A stretch of DNA of 64,000 nt from positions 248,001-312,000 of the forward strand of contig JAGNKU010000002.1 in assembly GCA_017999985.1 (NCBI GenBank), given 5' to 3'. The notes beneath the pieces are model-generated. The model saw only the letters and a program-made list of their open reading frames with translations. It was not told the DNA's origin and ran no database searches. Position 1 is the stretch's first letter. Every line of letters starts with the position of its first letter. This document shows, one piece after another, positions 9,651-21,868 of this stretch. Source of the DNA: Phycisphaerae bacterium. Lineage in GTDB: Bacteria > Planctomycetota > Phycisphaerae > UBA1845 > Fen-1342. The translations under genes were made by a program, and so were the position numbers.

Positions 9651-10670
9651 GTGAAACTGTCCATCGTCACTTCGCTGTACCACTCGGCGCGCTACCTGGA
9701 GGAGTTCCACCGGCGTACTTCCGCCGCGGCTGCGCAGGTCACCGACGATTTCGAGCTCGTGCTGGTCAACGACGGCTCGCCAGACGACTCCCTCGAGGTT
9801 GCGGTCCGGCTGCACCGCGCTGATCCGCGCGTGCGCGTCATCGACCTGGCCCGCAACTTCGGCCACCACAAGGCGCTGATGACCGGCCTGGCCCACGCGC
9901 GCGGTGATCTGATCTTCCTCATCGACGCGGACCTGGAGGAGGAGCCGGAACTGCTCCCGCGCTTCCACGCCGAAATGCAGGCGACCAGCGCCGAGGTGAT
10001 CTACGGCGTGCAGGCCCGGCGCAAAGGCGACTGGTTCGAGCGGCTCAGCGGCTGGTGTTTCTACCGCCTGTTCAACCTGTTATCGAGCCACCCAATCCCG
10101 GCCAACCTGATCACCGCCCGGCTGATGACCCGCCGCTACGTCGCCGCCCTGCTCCTGCATCGCGAATCCGAGGTCTTTCTCGGCGGCGTCTGGGCGATCA
10201 CGGGCTTTCGGCAGCTTCCGCTGCAGGTGGTCAAGCACAGTCACGGCCACACCACCTATAACCTCTGGCGGCGCCTGGCGCTGCTGGTCAACGCCATCAC
10301 ATCGTTCAGCAGCCGCCCGCTGCGGATGGTCTTCTATCTGGGAGCCCTGATTTTTCTGGTCTCGTCCCTGGCGGCCGCGTATCTCGTGTGTCTGCGCCTG
10401 TTCGTGCACGGCTTCACGCTCGGCTGGCCCTCGGTGGTGGTTTCGATCTGGATGATCGGCGGGCTGACGATTTTCTGCATCGGCGTCGTCGGTATCTACG
10501 TCTCCAAGATCTTCACCGAGAGCAAGCGGCGACCGTATACCATCGTGCGGGACATCTACGAGCGCGCCGAGGAGCCTGAGAGCCATGTCGTTCACCCACA
10601 TCCGGGATTCAGTGAGCGCCTACTACACTCAGAAGCTCCGCGCGAATGGCCCGAACGCGCGCGGCGTTGA
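9651..10670 (+). CDS. GT2 family glycosyltransferase, polyprenyl-phosphate sugar synthase type
   Basis: 339 residues from GTG 9651, four nt after the WbqC stop. The GT-A domain (residues 1-220) has LVNDGSPDDS, ARNFGHHKALMTGL and the metal-binding FLIDADLEEEPE, as in DPM1/GtrB/ArnC-like enzymes that put a sugar on undecaprenyl phosphate. Two transmembrane segments follow (about 225-255 and 262-290; VGIYVSKIFTESKRRPYTIV after the second), also typical. Such a product could feed the PMT-type transferases upstream. The last 29 residues are encoded in a region that also codes for the start of the next gene, and look like a low-constraint tail. Confidence 0.88.
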   Translation: MKLSIVTSLYHSARYLEEFHRRTSAAAAQVTDDFELVLVNDGSPDDSLEVAVRLHRADPRVRVIDLARNFGHHKALMTGLAHARGDLIFLIDADLEEEPELLPRFHAEMQATSAEVIYGVQARRKGDWFERLSGWCFYRLFNLLSSHPIPANLITARLMTRRYVAALLLHRESEVFLGGVWAITGFRQLPLQVVKHSHGHTTYNLWRRLALLVNAITSFSSRPLRMVFYLGALIFLVSSLAAAYLVCLRLFVHGFTLGWPSVVVSIWMIGGLTIFCIGVVGIYVSKIFTESKRRPYTIVRDIYERAEEPESHVVHPHPGFSERLLHSEAPREWPERARR

Positions 10671-11208
10671 CTGGAACTCGACCGAGTCACAGGTCCTGCG
10701 CTTCGATCAACTCCTCAAGGTGTGTCCGAGCGCACGCGATTTCAGCTTGCTCGACTACGGCTGCGGTTACGGCGCACTGTACGACTATCTGTGCTCCCGC
10801 GGCCTGTCGTGCGATTACTGCGGCTTTGACATCTCCGCCGCCATGATCGCCACGGCGCGCGCCCAGCATCCGGGCGCATCGCGCTGCCTCTTCACGGACG
10901 CCGACGCCGCGCTGACGGCCGCGGATTACGCGGTCGCGAGCGGCATCTTCAACGTGCGGCAGAACGTGCCCGACGCCGTGTGGTGGGAATATACCCGCAC
11001 CACCCTCGGTCGGCTGGCCGAACTGAGCCGGCACGGGTTCGCGTTCAACATGCTCACATCCTACTCCGACCCTGAGCGCATGCGACCGGATCTCTACTAT
11101 CCCGACCCCTGCAAGATCTTCGACTACTGCAAACGCACGTTCTCGAGGCAGGTAGCCTTGTTGCACGACTACGGCCTGTATGAGTTCACGATCCATGTGC
11201 GTCTGTGA
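10585..11208 (+). CDS. SAM-dependent methyltransferase overlapping the GT2 gene
   Basis: 207 residues. ATG 10585 lies 86 nt inside the preceding gene in another frame, but the N-terminal stretch (YYTQKLRANGPNARGVDWN) looks like a genuine family start, so the overlap is probably real. LLDYGCGYGALYDYL near residue 54 is the SAM loop; YCGFDISAAMIATA follows. The C-terminal half (YTRTTLGRLAELSRHGFAFNML, YYPDPCKIFDYCKR) matches methyltransferases of O-antigen and capsule loci. Likely cytoplasmic, acting on a sugar or nucleotide-sugar precursor; acceptor unknown. Confidence 0.85.
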   Translation: MSFTHIRDSVSAYYTQKLRANGPNARGVDWNSTESQVLRFDQLLKVCPSARDFSLLDYGCGYGALYDYLCSRGLSCDYCGFDISAAMIATARAQHPGASRCLFTDADAALTAADYAVASGIFNVRQNVPDAVWWEYTRTTLGRLAELSRHGFAFNMLTSYSDPERMRPDLYYPDPCKIFDYCKRTFSRQVALLHDYGLYEFTIHVRL

Positions 11209-11242
11209 GCCAGGTTGCCGCGCACCGCGTGGAGCTCCGCCC

Positions 11243-11938
11243 ATGCTGCGGGTAGCCTTCTGCATTTCCGGCCGCGGACGCCTGGCCCGCAGCGCGCTCG
11301 CGTGCCGCACCGCTCTGGGATTCAAGCCCGTACTTATCCTCACCGACGAAAAAGCTGACCCATCCCTGGAGCCGTTCGCCCAGGACGTCGGCACGCCGTT
11401 CGTCCGGCTGGATGTCCACGATCGACCGCGCTTTGATCGGGACCTCGAGGCCGCCTGCGTGCACGCCACCCCCGACCTCATCGTACTCACCTTCGACAAG
11501 CTCGTGCCTGCAACCCTGGTGGCGCGGTTTCCGCACGCGATCGTGAATGTGCATCTTTCGCTGCTGCCGGCGTTTCGCGGCTTCGGCGCACTGCGCGCCG
11601 CACTCGAGGCCGGCGTGAAATTCGCCGGGGCGACGCTGCACCTGGTCGGCACTGACGTCGATGGCGGCCCGATCATCACCCAGGGGGTCGTGCCCGTCCG
11701 CGCGGACGACACCCCCGCTGCGCTCGGGACCCGCATTTACGGACGACTGCTGCCGATGTACCTGCAGGTCCTGGCATGGTACGCTGCCGGCCGCGTGTGG
11801 CACGATACCGCGGGGCGCGTCTGGATTCGTGACGCCGACTACGGCGATTGCTTGACGTGTCCGGCGATTGAACCTGGCGTCGCTGCGCTGGCGCGCCGAC
11901 TTTCCGAGACACCTGAAGAAGTGAACCCGCACCCATGA
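11243..11938 (+). CDS. Formyltransferase-fold protein, likely sugar-amine N-formyltransferase
   Basis: 231 residues; ATG 11243 has GGAG nine nt upstream, and the frame further upstream overlaps the previous gene. The formyl_transf_N fold is seen from VNVHLSLLPAFRGFGALRAA (catalytic Asn and His, SLLP signature) and GTDVDGGPII (catalytic Asp). These residues use N10-formyl-tetrahydrofolate. There is no C-terminal tRNA-binding domain as in Met-tRNA formyltransferase (Fmt about 310 residues), and the gene overlaps by 4 nt an RffA-type transaminase that makes a 4-amino sugar. I infer N-formylation of dTDP-4-amino-4,6-dideoxy-hexose, as in VioF/FdtF-like systems. Sugar identity is inference. Confidence 0.82.
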   Translation: MLRVAFCISGRGRLARSALACRTALGFKPVLILTDEKADPSLEPFAQDVGTPFVRLDVHDRPRFDRDLEAACVHATPDLIVLTFDKLVPATLVARFPHAIVNVHLSLLPAFRGFGALRAALEAGVKFAGATLHLVGTDVDGGPIITQGVVPVRADDTPAALGTRIYGRLLPMYLQVLAWYAAGRVWHDTAGRVWIRDADYGDCLTCPAIEPGVAALARRLSETPEEVNPHP

Positions 11939-13074
11939 CGACTTCGCCAATCCCCTTCAACCGCCCCGTACCTGCCGGCCGCGAGCTGGAGTACATCCAG
12001 CAGTGCCTGCACGGCGCGCACCTGTCCGGCGACGGCCCGTTTACGAAGCGTGCGCACGCACTGCTCGAACAGCTCACCGGCGCCCGCAAGGCTTTCCTGA
12101 CGACTTCCTGCACGCACGCCCTGGAAATGTGCGCGCTGCTGCTGGACCTCAGCTCCGACCACGAGTTCATCGTCCCGTCATTCACGTTCGTCTCGACCGC
12201 CAACGCGTTCGCGCTCCGCGGCGCGCGGCCGGTCTTCTGTGACATTCGTCCGGACACACTCAACCTGGACGAGACGAAGCTCGCAGCGCTCATCACGCCG
12301 CGCACCCGCGCGATCGTGCCCGTGCATTACGCCGGCGTCGGCTGCGAAATGGACGCCATCCTCGCGATCGCGCGCCGCCACAACATCCCCGTGGTCGAGG
12401 ACAACGCCCATGGGCTGTTCGGCCGATACAAGGACCGGGCGCTCGGTACGTTCGGCGCGCTGGCGACGCAGAGCTTCCACGAGACGAAGAATATCGTCTG
12501 CGGCGAGGGCGGGGCCCTGCTGATCAACGACCCCGCGTACGTTGAGCGGGCCGAGATCATCCGCGAGAAAGGCACGAACCGCAGCCGCTTCTTCCGCGGA
12601 CAGATCGACAAGTACACGTGGGTCGATCTCGGGTCGAGCTACCTGCCGTCCGAGCTTCTCGCGGCGTTCCTGTGCGCGCAACTGGAGCAGGCGACCGAGA
12701 TCCAGGCGCGCCGCGGACGCATCTGGAACCACTACAACACCGAGCTGCACGACTGGGCCGCCGCGCACGACGTGCGCCTGCCGATCGTGCCGGCACACTG
12801 CCAACAGCCCTTCCACATGTTCTACATGCTGCTGCCGTCGCTCGAAGTGCGGCAGCGTCTGATTGCGCATCTGAAGGAGCACAAGATCCTGGCCGTGTTT
12901 CATTACCTGCCGCTACACCTCTCCGACGTCGGCCGGCGGTTCGGCGGCCGCGCGGGGCAATGTCCGGTCACCGAGCGCATCAGCGAACGACTGCTGCGTC
13001 TCCCCCTCTACAACGACATGACGCCCGCGGAGCAGGAGCGCGTCATCAACGCCGTGCGCGAGTTCAACTATTGA
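11935..13074 (+). CDS. rffA: dTDP-4-amino-4,6-dideoxygalactose transaminase, DegT/DnrJ family
   Basis: 379 residues, the usual length. It converts a dTDP-4-keto-6-deoxyhexose to the 4-amino sugar with PLP and glutamate. Family marks, much like the enterobacterial RffA/WecE as I remember it: PSFTFVSTANAFALRGARPVF, VPVHYAGVGCEMD, SFHETKN with the PLP lysine, EIIREKGTNRSRFFRGQIDKYTW, GSSYLPSE and MAVFHY-like LAVFHYLPLH. The start overlaps the stop of the formyltransferase gene (ATGA) and its stop overlaps the next start (TGATG), so all three are coupled. No rmlA or rmlB is visible in the window, so the keto-sugar must come from elsewhere. Confidence 0.93.
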   Translation: MTTSPIPFNRPVPAGRELEYIQQCLHGAHLSGDGPFTKRAHALLEQLTGARKAFLTTSCTHALEMCALLLDLSSDHEFIVPSFTFVSTANAFALRGARPVFCDIRPDTLNLDETKLAALITPRTRAIVPVHYAGVGCEMDAILAIARRHNIPVVEDNAHGLFGRYKDRALGTFGALATQSFHETKNIVCGEGGALLINDPAYVERAEIIREKGTNRSRFFRGQIDKYTWVDLGSSYLPSELLAAFLCAQLEQATEIQARRGRIWNHYNTELHDWAAAHDVRLPIVPAHCQQPFHMFYMLLPSLEVRQRLIAHLKEHKILAVFHYLPLHLSDVGRRFGGRAGQCPVTERISERLLRLPLYNDMTPAEQERVINAVREFNY

Positions 13075-14183
13075 TGCCCCGCGCGCTGGCCCTGGCGCTT
13101 CTGATCCTGCCACTGCTGGGCAGCTGTCCGACCATCGGGCTGCGAACCACGAATAGCCTGGAGATGGGATTCAATACCGGCGCCACCATGACGCCCGTGG
13201 CGACATCGGACACCCCGCTCTTTCGTGCCACCGCCGTGTTCGACAGCATCGCGGGCAAAGCCGGCAGCCACGCCCCCACGATCACTGCGTTTCCCGACGG
13301 CGAGCTGCTGGCAGCCTGGTATTCCTACAACGGGCCGCACGAGCTCGACGGGGCAGCCATTTACACCGCACGCCGACTCCCTGGTTCTGAAACGTGGGAG
13401 CCGCCGACACTGCATATCGATCGCCCGGCGGCCGACGGCAATCCGGTGCTCTACAGCGAAGGCGACAGCGTGTGGCTGTTTCAGGCCGTGGTGAGTGGCA
13501 CCGGCTGGAGCACCGCGCACATCGAGGTGCAGCGCTCCTCAAACCGCGGTGCTACGTGGTTGTCGCCGGAGCTGATCGTTGGCCCGCTAGGCGCCAATGT
13601 ACGCTTTCCGCCGATACGCACCCGCGACAGCGAATTGCTCCTGCCTGCGTACAACGACTTGGTCTTGCAGGCACTCTTTTTCGTTTCGCCGAACGGGCAA
13701 GACTGGACCCTGCGCGCCACGGTCGCGACCGCCCCGCCGCACGAATGCCTGCAACCGTCCGTCGTCAGGTTGGCCGACGGTCGCCTGCTGGCCGTGCTGC
13801 GGAACCGCGGGCAGGAGTGGCTCTGGGTTACCTCGTCCGCGGACGATGGCCGGACCTGGGCGACGCCGGCGGACAGCGGATTCCCCAACCCGGGCAGCGC
13901 GGCCGCCCTGTTGCGCCTGGCCAATGGACACCTCGTGCTGGTGTACAACGACAGCCCGTCAGCCCGGCGCCCGCTCTCCACCACAGTTTCCGCTGACGAC
14001 GGAGCCACCTGGTACCCGCCGCGGCTGCTCGTCGACGGTCCCGGTTCCTACGCCTACCCAGCCGCGATCCAGACGCCGGACGGCCTGATTCACATCGTCT
14101 ATTCCGACGACCGCCAACGCATCGGGCACATCGCGCTGAACGAGGCGTGGATCGTCGCAGAGGCGCCCGGGAGCGGTTCCTGA
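13074..14183 (+). CDS. Sialidase-like (BNR-repeat) lipoprotein
   Basis: 369 residues, starting in the TGATG overlap with rffA. The N-terminus MPRALALALLILPLLGSC is a lipoprotein signal (lipobox LGSC, Cys18). The body is a six-bladed-propeller type with BNR/Asp-box motifs: SSNRGATW, SSADDGRTW and SADDGATW, plus SHAPTITAFPDGELLAAWYS and ECLQPSVVRLADGRLLAVLRNRG, which resemble BNR_2 exo-sialidase-like proteins (PF13088). The first arginine of the sialidase triad and the catalytic Tyr/Glu pair cannot be confirmed by eye, so the substrate may be another glycan. Its coupling to sugar-synthesis genes suggests trimming or remodelling of the same polymer at the cell surface. Confidence 0.85.
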   Translation: MPRALALALLILPLLGSCPTIGLRTTNSLEMGFNTGATMTPVATSDTPLFRATAVFDSIAGKAGSHAPTITAFPDGELLAAWYSYNGPHELDGAAIYTARRLPGSETWEPPTLHIDRPAADGNPVLYSEGDSVWLFQAVVSGTGWSTAHIEVQRSSNRGATWLSPELIVGPLGANVRFPPIRTRDSELLLPAYNDLVLQALFFVSPNGQDWTLRATVATAPPHECLQPSVVRLADGRLLAVLRNRGQEWLWVTSSADDGRTWATPADSGFPNPGSAAALLRLANGHLVLVYNDSPSARRPLSTTVSADDGATWYPPRLLVDGPGSYAYPAAIQTPDGLIHIVYSDDRQRIGHIALNEAWIVAEAPGSGS

Positions 14184-14194
14184 CAGATCCGGAC

Positions 14195-14223
14195 TTGACT
14201 TTCCAGTGAACTTGGGCGATACT
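14195..14223 (+). promoter_or_regulatory. Sigma70-type promoter of the TetR gene
   Basis: TTGACT at 14195-14200 and GATACT at 14218-14223 are separated by the ideal 17 nt. The operator palindrome starts at the next base, so a bound repressor would block the start site. Confidence 0.65.
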
Positions 14224-14239
14224 GTAAGTATCCGCTTAC
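14224..14239. promoter_or_regulatory. Operator copy 1, GTAAG-N6-CTTAC
   Basis: Perfect 5-bp inverted repeat with a 6-nt spacer, placed just after the -10 box of the TetR gene. The same palindrome occurs again at 14877-14892 before the next gene. Two identical half-site pairs flanking a TetR gene are the usual signature of autoregulation plus control of the adjacent target. Confidence 0.7.
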
Positions 14240-14260: not shown

Positions 14261-14854
14261 ATGCCTCGAGTCAGTCAGACCAACGCCAAACGCCGCGCGC
14301 TGCTGCCGATTGTCGCGCACGCCTTCGCCGAACTGGGCTACCGGCGGACGACCACCGCGGAGCTGGCCCGACGCTGCGGCGTACGTGAGAACATCCTCTA
14401 CCGCCTCTGGCCGGACAAGAAGGCGATGTTCATCGCGGCGATCGGCTACGTGTACGACCAGTCGGTCGCGATCTGGGGCCGACTGCTGGTCGAGACCGAT
14501 GGTGAAACCACGCTCGCCGAGCGATTGCTCGCCTATGAGTCCCAGCACCACGGCGAGTTCGGACATTATAGGATTGTGTTCGCGGGGCTGAGCGAGACGG
14601 ACGACCCGGAAGTGCGGGCGGCCCTCTCGGACATGTATCGCCGGTTCGCACGTTTCGTGGAGCAGCAGATTAAAGTCCACCGCGCGAGCCGTGCCGTCGG
14701 GACGACCCCCGGTGCTGGCGACACGGCCTGGGCCGTGGTCGGGCTGGGCACGGTGGCCAACATCGCCCGTGAGCTGGGGCTGGTCAGCGACACGCAGCGC
14801 CGGCGGCTGTTCGCCGAAGTCGGGCGGCTGCTGCTCACCGGGTCGCAGAAGTGA
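14261..14854 (+). CDS. TetR/AcrR family transcriptional regulator
   Basis: 197 residues from ATG 14261. Residues about 10-56 form the helix-turn-helix domain (HAFAELGYRRTTTAELARRC, then GVRENILYRLWPDKKAMFIAAI), the standard TetR arrangement. The C-terminal ligand domain (about 60-197) is not assignable; it includes VFAGLSETDDPEVRAALSDMYRRF and a VVGLGTVANIARELGL helix. It probably binds GTAAG-N6-CTTAC at its own promoter and before the lipoprotein gene 70 nt downstream, and so represses both until a ligand is bound. The effector is unknown. Confidence 0.9.
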   Translation: MPRVSQTNAKRRALLPIVAHAFAELGYRRTTTAELARRCGVRENILYRLWPDKKAMFIAAIGYVYDQSVAIWGRLLVETDGETTLAERLLAYESQHHGEFGHYRIVFAGLSETDDPEVRAALSDMYRRFARFVEQQIKVHRASRAVGTTPGAGDTAWAVVGLGTVANIARELGLVSDTQRRRLFAEVGRLLLTGSQK

Positions 14855-14876
14855 GCGTTTTCTTTTTGGCGACAAT

Positions 14877-14892
14877 GTAAGCATATACTTAC
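14877..14892. promoter_or_regulatory. Operator copy 2, GTAAG-N6-CTTAC, over a -10 box
   Basis: Identical half-sites and spacing to 14224-14239. The spacer and right arm contain TATACT (14884-14889), a good -10 box, about 35 nt before the lipoprotein start. I see no convincing -35 box, so the promoter may depend on another feature. Confidence 0.65.
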
Positions 14893-14924: not shown

Positions 14925-16493
14925 ATGAAACAGTTCGTAGCAGTGTCGGCATTGGGCATGTTGGGTGGGCTGGTGGTGCTCACGCTGGGCAGTTGCGGCG
15001 GCGCCGCCGATCCGCAGCTCGAGCAGGAGTTCCGAGAGACCCTGGGAGATACGTCCATCACCGTCTTCCCGGCCGCGATACGCCGGGAGACGGTCACCTA
15101 TGATCACGCGCCAACGCTGAGAATCGGCGAGTTCCTGGCGGCGCAGAAGCTGGCCCAGCCAACGATTTCTGATGCGGAGGTGCCGCTCAGCGGGCCGTGG
15201 CACTCGAATGAGTCTACGATGTGGCAGGAGAGCGCCGCCTCCCTGGGCACGTATGTGAAGGCGCACCCCATCCAGACCCGTTATGCTCTGCTGCCGGAGT
15301 ACCTGATCCTCGGCGGAAGCGGCGCTGTCGGCGGCGTGCACGTGTACGTCGTGCGCGACGATGGCGCGCTCGTGTTCGGGTTTGGCCTGAATTCCCATCA
15401 CGAGGCGTTCAAGCGGCTGAGTCCGAAGACGGTGGATGATTGCACGACGCTCGCGATCGATCAACTGCGGGCGCAGCTCGTGACGGACAACGGGACGGCG
15501 AAGGTGAAATCCGGCTTGAAGGCGGACACCGCGCTGACCATCGTACCCGTCGTAATGCACGGTGGACCGTCGAAGGACGTGGCCGACGTCGTGGGGCTGA
15601 TGCTGGAAAAAGAAGGAATGCCGAATATCTGGACGACCGACGCGGCGTTCAATCCGGCCGCGGATGGGTCTCTGGATGAGCTGGCCACGGCGTTCGCCAA
15701 GTTCATTAAGGCGCATCCGGTCGAGACCGAGTATGCGCTGTTCGCGCAACTCCTCGGCACGCCGCAGACGGGGCTTACCGAGAGTCGCGCGGTGTTGGTG
15801 GACAAGGCCGGCGCTGTTGTCTGGAAGGACCAGCAAGGACCGGATGACGCTGACTTCCAGCGCATCCAGCCGCGCGAGCCGATGCAGTGCTGCCTGCTGC
15901 TGTGCGAGCGGCTGAAGCCGGTGTTTCATCTTTCGGCAGTGACGCGCGCGAAGGCGAGCGAGGGCCGGATGGCACGGCTGTGGGCGGAGAAATCCGGCAC
16001 GCCCACAGACGCGGAGCGCGCGGCGATGCATGACCGCGTGAGCAAGCTCAAGGCCGCCATCGGCAAGGCGACGATCGCCGTCTATCCCGTGCTGCTCGGC
16101 GACCAGGTGGATCGACAAGACGGCGAACAACTCGCGGCGCTCGTCGCCGAGGAGTTCGGCGGATCTGTGCAAGCGGCGGCAACCGACTTACCGCTGAAGA
16201 TCGCCCCGAACTCGAACGAGCAGCGACGGCTATGGGACCTCGCGCGGGCATTCCAGGCCCAGGTACGCGCGAATCCGCCGGCCGCCGATTACGCGCTCTA
16301 TGCGGAATACACGATCCGGCCAAGTGATCAGCAGGTCTGGACCGTGCATTTCGTGGTTTGTAACCGGGCCGGCGAGTGGGTCATCGTGGATTTCCAGAAC
16401 AACCATCACGACGATTTCCAGCGGATCAACCCACAGAACAAAGGCGACTGCGCTCGGCTGATCGTGAAACGGCTGCAGGGCTACCTGCGGTAG
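14925..16493 (+). CDS. Lipoprotein with three copies of an unrecognised domain
   Basis: 522 residues; ATG 14925 follows AAGGAGAGG. A lipoprotein signal ends at LTLGSC (Cys24). The rest is three related units (about residues 44-185, 203-332 and 384-522). Each begins with a beta strand of the type ITVFPAAI / LTIVPVVM / IAVYPVLL, contains a helix ending in AHPIQTRYAL / AHPVETEYAL / ANPPAADYAL, then a strand with a hydrophobic core (VHVYVVRDDG / SRAVLVDKAG / VHFVVCNRAG), an H-x-FQRI-x-P type turn, and a helix CTTLAIDQL / CLLLCERL / CARLIVKRL. I do not recognise the domain. It is probably anchored in a membrane and under the control of the TetR gene. The next gene is a zinc-ribbon membrane protein. 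Confidence 0.85.
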   Translation: MKQFVAVSALGMLGGLVVLTLGSCGGAADPQLEQEFRETLGDTSITVFPAAIRRETVTYDHAPTLRIGEFLAAQKLAQPTISDAEVPLSGPWHSNESTMWQESAASLGTYVKAHPIQTRYALLPEYLILGGSGAVGGVHVYVVRDDGALVFGFGLNSHHEAFKRLSPKTVDDCTTLAIDQLRAQLVTDNGTAKVKSGLKADTALTIVPVVMHGGPSKDVADVVGLMLEKEGMPNIWTTDAAFNPAADGSLDELATAFAKFIKAHPVETEYALFAQLLGTPQTGLTESRAVLVDKAGAVVWKDQQGPDDADFQRIQPREPMQCCLLLCERLKPVFHLSAVTRAKASEGRMARLWAEKSGTPTDAERAAMHDRVSKLKAAIGKATIAVYPVLLGDQVDRQDGEQLAALVAEEFGGSVQAAATDLPLKIAPNSNEQRRLWDLARAFQAQVRANPPAADYALYAEYTIRPSDQQVWTVHFVVCNRAGEWVIVDFQNNHHDDFQRINPQNKGDCARLIVKRLQGYLR

Positions 16494-16515: not shown

Positions 16516-17514
16516 ATGACGAACCTGGGTGCCCCGGTTGTCGGCGGCGACGTCGCGCGTTCGCGCCTGCGATTGAAGCGCGTCTTCCTGCGCACGCTCG
16601 TAATCTCGCTCGTGTCCTGCGCACTGGTCGCGGTCGCCGCACTGCTCGCGGGCACCTTCAACGACACGACCGCCAAGATATTGATGACGCTCGCGGCGCT
16701 GGCCGTGCACAGCGGCGTCGCGATGGTGCTCGCCCACGCGCTCGAGCGACAGGTTCGCACGATCGTGAGCCGCAGCGGTCTCATCCTGTTCGCCGCCAAC
16801 TTCGTGGTACTGCTCATCTGCATCTGGTGGCCGGGACCGCTGGACGCGCCCGCCGGCCGGGCCAGCGCGACGACGCTGGCCCTGCTGTGCGCGTATGTCG
16901 TCGCCGTACCGTGCGCCGACCTCATGGAACGTCGGGCCTACCAGCCGCTGCCGGCAGTCGGCCTGGCGAGCTGCATACTCGCTTTCGTGATGATCCTGGT
17001 CTGCATCTGGGCGGAGTCGCGGGAAAACGAAGCGTTCGCAAAGGCCACCGCCATCGCCGGCCTCGTCGCATTCTCGTTTGCCCATACGGCGCTGCTTCTG
17101 CGTGTGCCCACGGGCGGACGCACGGACTGGCTGCGCGCCGGCACCCTCTTGTGCGTATGGCTCGTGGCGGCAATGCTGGGCATCACGATCATTTGGGAAG
17201 TGGAAGACGAACTGTGGTTCCGCCTGCTCGGCGCCGCCGGTGTACTCGACGCCAGCGGCTCGCTGTCACTGCTGATCGTCGCCAAGTTGCGGCAGGTCGG
17301 CAAGACAGAGCAACTGCAGACCGCCGCGCCGCGCGTCGAGCTGAAGTGCCCGCGCTGCGCCACACCACAGTGCGTCGACATCGGCGCCACCCAGTGCAGC
17401 GCCTGCGGCTTGAAGTTCCGTATCGAGATCGAGGAACCACGCTGCGTGAAATGCGACTACGTGCTCTGGCAGTTGCCGGAGCGGCGCTGCCCGGAGTGCG
17501 GCACGCCGTTCTGA
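16516..17514 (+). CDS. Polytopic membrane protein with two C-terminal zinc ribbons
   Basis: 332 residues, 22 nt after the lipoprotein gene and probably in its operon. Seven or eight hydrophobic segments cover residues about 22-258 (for example LVISLVSCALVAVAALLAG and LAFVMILVCIWA). The C-terminal 65 residues are soluble and hold four CxxC knuckles (CPRC, CSAC, CVKC, CPEC) that form two rubredoxin-like zinc ribbons. This arrangement is common among unnamed planctomycete membrane proteins. No enzyme motif is visible; a sensory or assembly role beside the lipoprotein is possible but unproven. Confidence 0.8.
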   Translation: MTNLGAPVVGGDVARSRLRLKRVFLRTLVISLVSCALVAVAALLAGTFNDTTAKILMTLAALAVHSGVAMVLAHALERQVRTIVSRSGLILFAANFVVLLICIWWPGPLDAPAGRASATTLALLCAYVVAVPCADLMERRAYQPLPAVGLASCILAFVMILVCIWAESRENEAFAKATAIAGLVAFSFAHTALLLRVPTGGRTDWLRAGTLLCVWLVAAMLGITIIWEVEDELWFRLLGAAGVLDASGSLSLLIVAKLRQVGKTEQLQTAAPRVELKCPRCATPQCVDIGATQCSACGLKFRIEIEEPRCVKCDYVLWQLPERRCPECGTPF

Positions 17515-17560: not shown

Positions 17561-19198
17561 CTACTTGCGGACCGCCGCCACCTCGTCTTTGATCCGCTTC
17601 ACATGCCCGCGGCCCAGACCCTTTACCTCGCAACCCAGCTCGAAGTACCGGCGGATCTTCGCGTCGTCCAGGATGCCGAAACAGTCGATGATCCCGACCG
17701 GCTGGCCGACCATCTTCACAACTTCGTCCGGCGACAGTGCCAGGTACGGCGCGTGCCGCACCGCGAGCACCACCGCGTCGGCGCCCTGCAACGCCGCCGC
17801 CAGGTCCTGCTGGACACGGAGATTTTTCAGACCCTCCTGGTTGCGGAAGAAGCGCGCCCAGCTGTGCCCCGGCGACGGATAGGTGTCCTGCTCCTCGACC
17901 TCCCACCAGTGCTGCAGGTACGGGTCATGCACACGCATGTCAGCCCCCATCTCGGTCAGCTTGCGCAGCACGAGCTCGCTGCCGCTGTAACGCGTGTCGC
18001 CGACGTCTTCGCGGTACGCCGCCCCGAGCAGCGCCACGCGCGCCGCCGCGACGATCTTACCCATGTTGCGCAGCGCGTCGCGCGTCAGCTCGGCGACGTG
18101 CAAGGCGCGGGTGTCGTTGATGTCAATCGCCATCGGCGTGATCTTGAAGATCTCGTCCTCGAAACCCATCAGGTGGCGGTAAGCCCACATGCCCAGGCCG
18201 CCGTCCTTCGGCAGGCAGTAGCCGCCGATGCCGGGGCCGGGGAAGATCATGTTGTTGTGCGTCGGCCGCATCTTGATCGCCTTGACGACCTTGATCAGGT
18301 CGACGCCGTTGCGCTCGGCGAAGAGGCTCCACTCGTCGAGAAAGGCCAGCATGGTGGCGCGGAAGCTGTTTTCCACGATCTTGCAGGTCTCGCTCTCGAG
18401 CGGGCGATCGAGCACGGTGAGGGGGAACTTCTCGGTGTTCAGCACCTCGGTGAGGAACTTTTCCACGCGCTGGCGGGCTTCCGCGTTCACGCCGCTGCAG
18501 ACACGCCAGAAGTCGCGAATGCTGCGGACGTACTCCTTGCCGGGCATGACGCGCTCGAAGCTGTGCGCCAGCAGCGGCTCGGAGGTGATCCCGCGGGCGG
18601 CGAAGGCGCGCTTCAGGATCGGCAGCGCCACGTACTCGGTCGTGCCCGGGGCGACGGTGGTCTCGATCAGCACGAGGCACTTCGGCGGGATGAGCTGCCC
18701 GATGACCTCGAAGCTCTTCTCCAGGGCGGCCATGTCGGCGCGGCCGGTACGCAGGTTGCCGAGGTCTTCCTTCAGGTAGTCGCACTGCACGTCAACCACG
18801 ACGCAATCGGCCAGCTTCAGCACGTCGTTGGTATACGTCGCCATCAACGTGCCCTTCTCCTTCACGCAACGCGGGATAATCTGGTCCACCTCGGGGTCTT
18901 CGGCCTTCACAGGCGACACGCCGCGGTTGAGGTACTGAATCTTCCAGTAGCTGCGCGTGCTGGGCCGCTGCATGCCGATCACGAACTTGCTCGGCTTGCC
19001 GGTCTTCTTGTCGACCGTGTCGGCCACGACGGCGGCCATGACCGCGCCGACGAACCCGACGCCGACGACCACGACGATCTCGCGGCCCTGCTTGCGCTGC
19101 TCGGCGACGATCTTCTCCAGCCGCTGATACTCGGCCGCATACTGCTCCTCGGTCGGCAGCGGAAACTTCTCACCATCGGGGCTGACTGAAAACGCCAT
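17561..19198 (-). CDS. UDP-glucose/GDP-mannose dehydrogenase family nucleotide-sugar dehydrogenase
   Basis: 545 residues, longer than the usual 430-450, with GAGGAG before the ATG at 19198. These enzymes oxidise a nucleotide sugar twice at C6 (or epimerised ManNAc) to an acid using NAD. Visible marks: IVVVVGVGFVGAVMAAV (NAD-binding Rossmann loop, about residue 42), ADCVVVDVQCDYL, VLIETTVAPGTTE, ENSFRATMLAFLDEWSLFAE and GPGIGGYCLPKD with the catalytic cysteine. The extra length is an N-terminal 35-residue extension plus insertions after the Rossmann fold (KFVIGMQRPST...). It may supply a uronic acid for surface polysaccharide. The exact sugar cannot be read from sequence. Confidence 0.88.
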   Translation of the reverse strand: MAFSVSPDGEKFPLPTEEQYAAEYQRLEKIVAEQRKQGREIVVVVGVGFVGAVMAAVVADTVDKKTGKPSKFVIGMQRPSTRSYWKIQYLNRGVSPVKAEDPEVDQIIPRCVKEKGTLMATYTNDVLKLADCVVVDVQCDYLKEDLGNLRTGRADMAALEKSFEVIGQLIPPKCLVLIETTVAPGTTEYVALPILKRAFAARGITSEPLLAHSFERVMPGKEYVRSIRDFWRVCSGVNAEARQRVEKFLTEVLNTEKFPLTVLDRPLESETCKIVENSFRATMLAFLDEWSLFAERNGVDLIKVVKAIKMRPTHNNMIFPGPGIGGYCLPKDGGLGMWAYRHLMGFEDEIFKITPMAIDINDTRALHVAELTRDALRNMGKIVAAARVALLGAAYREDVGDTRYSGSELVLRKLTEMGADMRVHDPYLQHWWEVEEQDTYPSPGHSWARFFRNQEGLKNLRVQQDLAAALQGADAVVLAVRHAPYLALSPDEVVKMVGQPVGIIDCFGILDDAKIRRYFELGCEVKGLGRGHVKRIKDEVAAVRK

Positions 19199-19251: not shown

Positions 19252-20706
19252 CTAGATGTGCTCCGTCGCGATCCCGTACATCTGGCCATAGGCCTCAAAC
19301 TGCCGCACGTGATCGCCGTAAATGAACAACTGGTGAAAGCCCTGCGTGTCGCGCGTGTCGGCGGGGCCGTCCAGGGCCAGCTCGACCGACGTGCGGCACC
19401 CGCCGGCGGGCGGCGTGTCATGATTGCGCAGCACGCGGCCCTTGCCCAGGATCATCTTGTCCGGGGCCGTGAACTGCATGATCGTCACTTCCTGCTCGGG
19501 GCGCCACAGCACCTGGAGCGAGACACCGATGTCGGATTCCGAGTGGCTGCGCAGGATGAACGGCTCCGGGGGCTGGTGGTAGCCATTGAGCCGGGTCGGG
19601 CAGACACAGTGCGCGCCGATGAATGTGTTGTGCACTGTCTCCGGCACCGGATCCTGCATGAAGCCTGGCTTGTCCAACAGCTTGCAGCACAGCGTGTGCG
19701 ACATGACCGCGTTGATGTCTGCTTCGCAGATCGCGGGCACGCCTGCATCGAGGAACCGCGACCAGGCCATGCACGGCGGGCACGGTATCTGCCGGTCGAA
19801 GACCGCGCCGAGGCAGTCCATCGTGATCCCGTGACAGCCTTCCTCGCTGAGAATGCGCGCGGCTGCGAAGTAGTTGCGCGCCGCGTTGATCACATCCGCC
19901 CGCGAGGGCTCAACGACTTTCTGTGCCGCCTTGCTGTACTCCTCAACCATCGCCAGCACGTCCGGCGTCTCGCCCGTCGCCGCCAGTGCGTCCGCGAACC
20001 GTTGCCGCGGCAGACGCCGGAGCTGCAGGCCGAAGGGCTCGAGCACTTCGTCCCGCGTCTCGTTCCCGGCCAGGACCGCCACACGCGTTCGCCGCACGTC
20101 ATACGCTGTCCGCACCATCTTGAGCCCGAAGCGCAGCGGATTCAGCTCGAAGTCCGGCGACGAGATCAGGTGGACACCTGGCTGACGCGACAGCGCACGA
20201 ATGTGGCCGGTGAAGCACACCCCCAGGCCGGCGAAGATGATCGTCGGGACGCCTGCGTCGGCGATTTTCTTGACCTGCCCCCACTGATCCATGTGCAACG
20301 GCAGCGCGATAACCGCGGCCGGCTTTGCCGCCTGGACCTGCGCGGCAAAACCGGCGACGGCCGCGTCGTCATACAGCGGCTCAGGCTCGAAGCGCATGCG
20401 GACTTTCAGCTCGTGACCGAAGCCCTCCAGGCGCTCCCGCGTTTTGTTGACAAACGCGTCGTAGGCATGTTTTTCCCACGCGGTGCCCGGCCAGCCGAGC
20501 CAGTACTTGTTTTTCGGCCGCAGGAACACGACCCGGATTTCAGGCCAACTGCCGGGCGTGTCGGCGGCTTCCGTCTGCGCGACCTCGCGCGCCGTAGCTT
20601 GTCGCAACCAGAATGCACCCGCAACGCTGGTGCTGGCGGCGGCGACCAGAAACTCGCGCCGCGAGAGCCCACTCGAACTACCACAGCACGCGCTATGATG
20701 GCACAC
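19252..20706 (-). CDS. Tat-exported protein with L-fucose/L-arabinose isomerase-like fold
   Basis: 484 residues from GTG 20706; an upstream start at 20817 is possible but would bury the signal. SRREFL at residues 15-20, followed by a hydrophobic stretch and Ala-rich cleavage zone, is a twin-arginine signal. The mature part has the shape of the sugar isomerase N-terminal and central domains: AAVIALPLHMDQWGQV, ARNYFAAARILSEEGCHGITMDCLG, VPAICEADINAVMSH and FIGAHCVCPT, resembling FucI/AraA-like proteins of unknown substrate. A sugar isomerase-like protein folded in the cytoplasm and exported is unusual. The metal-ligand residues cannot be confirmed without alignment, so it could be a binding protein. 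Gene 53 nt from the dehydrogenase, same strand. Confidence 0.75.
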   Translation of the reverse strand: MCHHSACCGSSSGLSRREFLVAAASTSVAGAFWLRQATAREVAQTEAADTPGSWPEIRVVFLRPKNKYWLGWPGTAWEKHAYDAFVNKTRERLEGFGHELKVRMRFEPEPLYDDAAVAGFAAQVQAAKPAAVIALPLHMDQWGQVKKIADAGVPTIIFAGLGVCFTGHIRALSRQPGVHLISSPDFELNPLRFGLKMVRTAYDVRRTRVAVLAGNETRDEVLEPFGLQLRRLPRQRFADALAATGETPDVLAMVEEYSKAAQKVVEPSRADVINAARNYFAAARILSEEGCHGITMDCLGAVFDRQIPCPPCMAWSRFLDAGVPAICEADINAVMSHTLCCKLLDKPGFMQDPVPETVHNTFIGAHCVCPTRLNGYHQPPEPFILRSHSESDIGVSLQVLWRPEQEVTIMQFTAPDKMILGKGRVLRNHDTPPAGGCRTSVELALDGPADTRDTQGFHQLFIYGDHVRQFEAYGQMYGIATEHI

Positions 20707-20908
20707 GGTTCCGCCTCCAGCCGGTCCGCTGCCATGGCCGACACCGAGTCGTTGCGCGGACGGGCGGCACGATTGGACGGTGTGTGCCAGTATCGCCCAG
20801 GCCCGCGACGGCGCCAAGCAGGGCAGCCGCGGCTGAACGCCGGAATGGGCGCCGGGTCCTACCGATCCGCCGATTTCTGGCGGCCGTGCGGCCCGGTCCA
20901 GTCGTCGG

Positions 20909-20956: not shown

Positions 20957-21646
20957 CTACTTCACGCGCGTGTACGTGATTTCCATCTGCTTGATCTCCT
21001 TACCATCGGGCTGCGTCATGTACATCTCAAAGACGTGCTTGTCCTGGCTCTCGATGCGCGACACCGTGCGCCACTTCTGGTCCAGTTGCTCCGTCATCGG
21101 ATTGGGGCCCGCGCCGGTGATGGTGATGACCTTGCCCGTCGCGTCGCACTTTCCCGTGCCGTACATCATGCCCGTGCTCATGTTGTCGATCCACACGGAC
21201 ATGTACTCCTTTTTCATGTTGTCATAACCCAGCAGCCCCAGGCCGTTGTACGGAGGACCGTTCGGCTCTTCCGGCGGTGCCGTCACGTCCTGCCGCAGGT
21301 ACTTGCCGTCGTAGATCCACGTGAACTCCGCCTTGCCCTGCGAGGTCTGCGGCTCGGCGTCCGGCGACATCCACCAGCGCAACTGAAAGTCCCACTTGCC
21401 CACGAACGGGTCGAGGTGCTTGTGGTGCTCGCCCGGCGTGGCGTACTCCATGCACCGCTTCATCATCTCGGCCATTTTCTCGGCATCAGCCTGGGCCGCG
21501 GCGGGCTTCTTGGCGTCTTCCGCCTTCGACGGTGTTTCCGACGGCTTGCGAGTGTCCGGCGGCTGCTTCTCCTGCGCCAGCGCCGGCAGCGTCCACAGCA
21601 GCCCGCAAGCACACGCCAGCCCAAAAGTCCATTTACATCGCATCAT
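20957..21646 (-). CDS. Secreted DUF1579 domain protein
   Basis: 229 residues; the ATG at 21646 is preceded by AAGGAG with 7 nt spacing, better than the upstream start at 21682. A signal peptide (CKWTFGLACACGLLWTLPALA-Q) is cut near residue 25. A Lys/Glu/Ala-rich linker follows to about 60. The DUF1579 part runs from KHLDPFVGKWDFQLRWWMSP through GLLGYDNMKKEYMSVWIDNMSTG to the IKQMEITYTRVK end. DUF1579 proteins are lipocalin-like beta barrels of unknown function, common in planctomycetes and often many per genome. It probably acts in the periplasm. No operon partner is evident. Confidence 0.87.
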   Translation of the reverse strand: MMRCKWTFGLACACGLLWTLPALAQEKQPPDTRKPSETPSKAEDAKKPAAAQADAEKMAEMMKRCMEYATPGEHHKHLDPFVGKWDFQLRWWMSPDAEPQTSQGKAEFTWIYDGKYLRQDVTAPPEEPNGPPYNGLGLLGYDNMKKEYMSVWIDNMSTGMMYGTGKCDATGKVITITGAGPNPMTEQLDQKWRTVSRIESQDKHVFEMYMTQPDGKEIKQMEITYTRVK

Positions 21647-21868
21647 GCTTGTGCTCCTTCTCTGGGTATCGGCCCGCAACATCGCCGCCTCACACCGAGG
21701 TCGACGTCAACACGCAGACAGCATGTTAGGGTTTTGTTCGCTTTTCGTCAACTGCCATTCGGCCCGCACACTGGGAGATAGTAGCGCCGTTGCTCACATA
21801 GCGGCGGCGATGTACGCTGAGTGGGCAACGGGCGAGATGAGCGAATCCATGCTCCCGGCGCGATGCCT

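Follow-up and report, generated by a model that had tools for sequence, protein, structure and literature searches.

The window analyzed here, a 64,000-nt stretch of DNA from a Phycisphaerae bacterium, contains a gene for a repetitive lipoprotein flanked by genes for a TetR-type regulator and a zinc-ribbon membrane protein, and the locus raises the question of what such a lipoprotein does and how it is controlled. An earlier sequence-only reading had proposed three copies of an undescribed domain in a self-contained, inducible envelope system, naming a ligand binder or a stress shield as examples of what it might be. In our judgment, a local, autoregulated envelope-response unit is the best explanation of the locus, and we hold it with moderate confidence. 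The features on which the argument draws are as follows.

14195..14223, + strand: sigma-70-type promoter of the TetR gene (TTGACT-17-GATACT), predicted from sequence and ending exactly at operator 1
14224..14239, no strand: operator 1, GTAAGTATCCGCTTAC, directly 3′ of the −10 element of the TetR promoter
14261..14854, + strand: TetR-family repressor, 197 aa (PF00440, E 1.4e-10; orthologue alignment)
14858..14868, + strand: T-tract TTTTCTTTTTG, a −16-like promoter element whose last G lies exactly 9 nt before GTAAG
14871..14876, + strand: putative −10-like element (GACAAT) of the lipoprotein promoter
14877..14892, no strand: operator 2, GTAAGCATATACTTAC, before the lipoprotein gene
14925..16493, + strand: lipoprotein of three TolB-N/PelC-like units, 522 aa (ATG start; unit alignment and structure prediction)
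14925..14996, + strand: signal peptide with lipobox LGSC and putative lipidated Cys24 (from sequence; hydrophobic segment from residue 1)
15012..15479, + strand: unit U1 (local alignment; AlphaFold2)
15534..15923, + strand: unit U2 (local alignment; AlphaFold2)
16008..16487, + strand: unit U3 (local alignment; AlphaFold2)
16516..17514, + strand: polytopic membrane protein with a C-terminal double zinc ribbon (CPRC, CSAC, CVKC, CPEC), from sequence

The lipoprotein and the fold of its units

The lipoprotein ORF is preceded by an RBS-like AAGGAG and is present as a single copy in the genome (5.23 Mb, 31 contigs). Its product begins with a signal peptide and a lipobox cysteine (LTLGSC, residues 19–24), from which we infer that Cys24 is the lipidated residue; homologues also carry GGC or SGC as lipobox, and an envelope location is strongly implied. 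The nearest named relatives are found in Phycisphaerales/Phycisphaerae MAGs (Planctomycetota). Searches of plasmids and phages returned no match, and a mobile-element origin of the locus was rejected on that ground.

The repeat architecture proposed from the sequence proved to be real. Local alignment scores were 85 for U1/U2, 134 for U1/U3 and 104 for U2/U3, as compared with about 28 ± 5 for shuffled sequences, and none of the inter-unit scores was reached in 500 shuffles. The motifs quoted in that reading were all present: the AHPxxTxYAL type as KAHPIQTRYAL and KAHPVETEYAL and, in unit 3, as ANPPAADYAL; the strand VLVDKAGAVV; the turns FKRLSP, FQRIQP and FQRINP; and a cysteine in the last helix of every unit. 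In a tree of 75 units, U1, U2 and U3 each formed one clade (support 0.98, 1.0 and 0.95, respectively), implying that they are ancient unit types. Among related genomes, some have a gene with U1 alone, some a gene with U2-U3, some the two as neighbors and some a fusion like the present one; the one-unit U1 gene nearly always possesses a lipobox. A divergent, single-unit lipoprotein-like paralogue (E ~1e-12) with neither TetR nor operator was observed in G023 (L078:4295-4969), and a unit-gene remnant with two intact operators, a decayed copy of the system, in G108 (L079:4589-5135).

Pfam, NCBIfam and PDB sequence searches with the whole lipoprotein returned no match, and the 75 units searched separately against Pfam gave nothing above chance; the weak candidates that ranked first for the unit in Pfam, PDB and NCBIfam (G6B, RppH and others) were rejected as chance-level. 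The structure of unit 3 was predicted with AlphaFold2 from 75 aligned units (pLDDT 96.8, pTM 0.92), as was that of the mature three-unit protein (pLDDT 93.8, pTM 0.73). The predicted topology consists of three repeats of β-α-β-α-β-β-β-α-α, which is richer than the strand-helix-strand-helix plan first proposed. Foldseek placed PelBC (9h80, E 4.3e-5) and TolB (1c5k, E 1.4e-4) at the top, while VIA-align gave Z of 8–9 with FlgT, PelC and the TolB N-domain over 107–131 residues and of 6–9 with CsgG, LpoB, PqiC, HpaA and GNA1162; each of the three units matched PelC or TolB. Nitrilase-family matches of the full-length protein in Foldseek were disregarded (rmsd 18–20 Å). The cytosolic enzymes ITPase, Maf, YjjX and HcgB share the unit fold at equal Z, and the fold therefore proves no envelope role. 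On these models, homology of the unit to the periplasmic TolB-N/PelC/CsgG-like fold is probable rather than proven, with the ITPase/Maf-type likeness standing beside it. The domain is thus undescribed as a sequence family, as had been claimed, but its fold, that of TolB-N, PelC, FlgT, CsgG and LpoB, is a known one.

The likeness to these proteins and to GNA1162 extends from the predicted fold to an exported, lipoprotein context; the present protein differs in its lack of a sequence-family match, its three tandem units and its TetR control. It matches neither the TolB_N model nor any other Pfam entry and has no C-terminal β-propeller, in contrast to TolB; the Pfam models of CsgG, LpoB and GNA1162 do not match it, the pel and csg genes of the Pel and Csg systems are absent here, and no pel-like neighbor recurs across loci. 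PelC, which acts in Pel polysaccharide export, is encoded in the pel operon and forms a dodecameric ring.

The TetR repressor, its putative operators and the two predicted promoters

TetR/AcrR proteins such as AcrR (acrAB), TtgR and QacR are local one-component regulators that are autoregulated, lie beside their target and bind palindromic operators over promoters. The helix-turn-helix of the 197-aa protein scored 41.2 bits against the TetR_N model (PF00440; cut-off 24), placing it in this family. The nearest curated and PDB sequence match was the nucleoid occlusion protein SlmA (NCBIfam E 8e-8, PDB E 1.7e-6, mostly over the helix-turn-helix half); the two are set apart by a score of 32 bits where the cut-off is 120, and by local 16-bp operators in place of chromosome-wide sites. 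Perfect 16-bp palindromes (GTAAG-N6-CTTAC) occur on either side of the TetR gene, the first (14224) at its own putative promoter, an arrangement that recurs in orthologues, and the second before the lipoprotein gene. These are the only two GTAAGYNNNNRCTTAC sites in the 5.23-Mb genome, and a reversed-pattern control found none. The arrangement resembles that of AcrR-type regulators in having the repressor beside its putative target and palindromes over the predicted promoters. It differs in that the putative target is a lipoprotein or other envelope protein, not an efflux pump, and in that the operator is kept over the phylum while the targets are exchanged.

Among 54 loci with the unit, an orthologous TetR gene precedes it in the same orientation in 39, for the most part as its immediate neighbor. 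Exact operators were found on both sides in 16 of these, on one side in 15 and on neither in eight, such that at least one exact palindrome is kept in 31. Some of the 15 remaining loci are contig ends; others, in the class members G281, G337 and G358, encode the lipoprotein-type protein without this TetR. The pair and its operators were also found in other Planctomycetota classes (G414, G424, G436, G467 and G623), and G568, likewise of another class, has the pair without an exact operator. Over 50 sites, the operator consensus is NATANT-GTAAGYRNNYRCTTAC. Tandem palindromes, 21–24 bp apart, were seen near the TetR gene start in L105, L107 and L108 (G510, G554 and G561). A literature search for a Planctomycetota TetR-lipoprotein system, or for DUF2339 under TetR control, found nothing relevant.

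For the predicted TetR promoter, over 23 loci, matches to TTGACA averaged 5.4 of 6 positions (2.6 in shuffled sequence) and those to the −10 averaged 4.1 of 6 (1.5 in shuffled sequence); its general form is TTGACA-17-NATANT abutting the operator. The lipoprotein promoter has no −35, and a phased TTTTTTTG tract takes that place: the G falls at −9 from operator 2 in 19 of 22 sites, and T occupies −10 to −12 in 20 of 22. No consistent hairpin was found at the T-tract after tetR (hairpin z-scores average −0.65), and since the spacing of the tract is fixed relative to the operator and not relative to the stop codon, its interpretation as a tetR terminator was rejected. The tract resembles the −16 TTTTTTTG element of Campylobacter jejuni promoters, which is likewise a run of T closed by a G shortly before the −10 and replaces a conserved −35 (PMC3824568). 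The gap to the −10 is 1 nt there and 2 nt here, and here the tract occurs in GC-rich Planctomycetota and is combined with a TetR operator.

Taken together, the comparisons show that, across genera and classes, the predicted −10 of the TetR promoter and that of the lipoprotein promoter are each followed directly by the same 16-bp palindrome. For the repressor and its operators, the case is as firm as sequence evidence can make it. The pairing across much of the phylum suggests a small inducible envelope response, and the proposal of a self-contained inducible system with a dedicated repressor has good support from genomic comparison as regards the TetR-lipoprotein pair.

Neighbors of the regulator and competing explanations

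The zinc-ribbon gene, which begins 22 nt past the lipoprotein stop, had been taken as the third member of the system. It follows the lipoprotein gene in G000, G010, G086, G062 and G091 and lies ~3 kb off in G002; most lipoprotein loci lack it. Of 150 relatives, 60 carry a member of its family, mostly at an unlinked position, and the protein is thus a facultative partner. Of the expected synteny the TetR-lipoprotein pair remains, the three genes not being fixed together.

Orthologues of the TetR, or its operator, also occur beside other genes. The zinc-ribbon gene without the lipoprotein adjoins TetR in G022 and the operator only in G009; DUF7670 is found with TetR in G045 and G060 (C19), with the operator only in G060 (C39) and, weakly, in G503; and DUF2339 neighbors TetR in G147 and G224 and a decayed TetR in G016 and G026. 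DUF1579 adjoins an orthologous TetR in G707 (L111), DUF4019 does so in G681, and other membrane or exported proteins adjoin TetR or the operator in G531, G554 and G637. By prediction, all of the non-lipoprotein neighbors checked contain membrane segments or start with a signal-like sequence, except for a cytosolic, DUF3419 methyltransferase-like protein in G473. That nearly all are membrane or exported proteins supports an inducible envelope response, this putative wider regulon being drawn mostly from adjacency to TetR or operator.

Several observations concern the surroundings. In G016 and G026 (L093 and L094; L094:5746-6163), two operators flank the truncated TetR beside the DUF2339 membrane protein, an arrangement suggestive of a second copy of the regulatory unit that is undergoing decay. 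In the window, a BNR/sialidase-like exported protein (PF13088) is encoded at 13076-14182, directly upstream of tetR; G002 likewise has BNR/sialidase-related ORFs close to TetR, and G016 has a similar exported ORF close to its decayed TetR. The product of a 521-aa ORF (19255-20817, − strand), which has a Tat-like leader and looks like a substrate-binding protein, had no Pfam match at 0.001, and an exported DUF1579 protein, the family also seen in G707, is encoded 4 kb from the locus (20957-21682, − strand).

As an envelope-response unit, the locus would work as follows. Each operator would overlie the start of transcription and, when no inducer is present, a TetR dimer over the start-site region of both promoters would block them, such that simple steric repression is expected. 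On the inducing signal and the role of the lipoprotein, we infer that a small ligand would release TetR, its likely source being envelope damage or a membrane-active compound. The lipoprotein would then be synthesized and exported, receive its lipid at Cys24 and stay in the periplasm at a membrane, where its three TolB-N/PelC-like units may serve as protein-binding or oligomerizing modules that reinforce or adjust the envelope. The zinc-ribbon protein of this genome is probably co-transcribed as part of the same response. Counting against this reading are the eight TetR-linked loci without an exact operator, the cytosolic neighbor in G473, and the three genomes with the lipoprotein-type protein and no such TetR.

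A possible but rather unlikely alternative is that the TetR senses a small molecule (an antibiotic, lipid or signal) that the lipoprotein sequesters in the periplasm, with the conserved N-[SND]-H-[HW] and D-C positions of U1 and U3 forming the binding site. The high conservation of QN/NSHH...F...DC in these two units, the strong conservation of TetR ligand-domain residues across genera, and the pattern of one regulator and mainly one target at lipoprotein loci are in its favor; however, U2 lacks the HH motif, and a ligand common to the unrelated small membrane, DUF2339 and DUF1579 proteins beside the orthologues is unlikely. We consider it improbable that the units form a PelC/CsgG/FlgT-like ring or scaffold for secretion or surface polysaccharide assembly. 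The structural matches of every unit to PelC or TolB fit such a role, as do the surface-sugar genes around the locus (9651-13074 and 17561-19198; a methyltransferase and, within 6 kb, GT2 glycosyltransferase, formyltransferase, DegT aminotransferase and UDP-sugar dehydrogenase), but TetR and the lipoprotein are the only genes found repeatedly from locus to locus, with no exporter or polysaccharide gene conserved beside them, and three domains per chain contrast with the one-domain subunit of the PelC ring. Downstream genes do vary between lineages, yet that the TetR is a general autoregulator captured by varied neighbors without common function, the downstream gene being fortuitous, is very improbable given an operator directly before the lipoprotein gene with a phased promoter element, a pairing that spans classes, and neighbors that are nearly all membrane-bound or exported by prediction.

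Returning to the envelope-response reading, we propose more tentatively, at somewhat less than even confidence, that this is an undescribed one-component envelope-response TetR of Planctomycetota, with a phylum-wide GTAAG-N6-CTTAC operator, a phased T-tract for the −35, and interchangeable outputs that comprise TolB-N-like tandem lipoproteins, zinc-ribbon, DUF7670, DUF2339 and other proteins. The lipoprotein itself is new as a sequence family but not in its fold, and it belongs to a conserved, target-swapping local TetR regulon. Planctomycetota have an unusual envelope, and little is known of how they control envelope stress. The regulon described here is compact, with one repressor, two operators genome-wide and one main output, and it ties several proteins of unknown function (the TolB/PelC-like lipoprotein family, zinc-ribbon, DUF7670 and DUF2339) to one signal, while the phased T-tract suggests that the phylum uses a second type of promoter.
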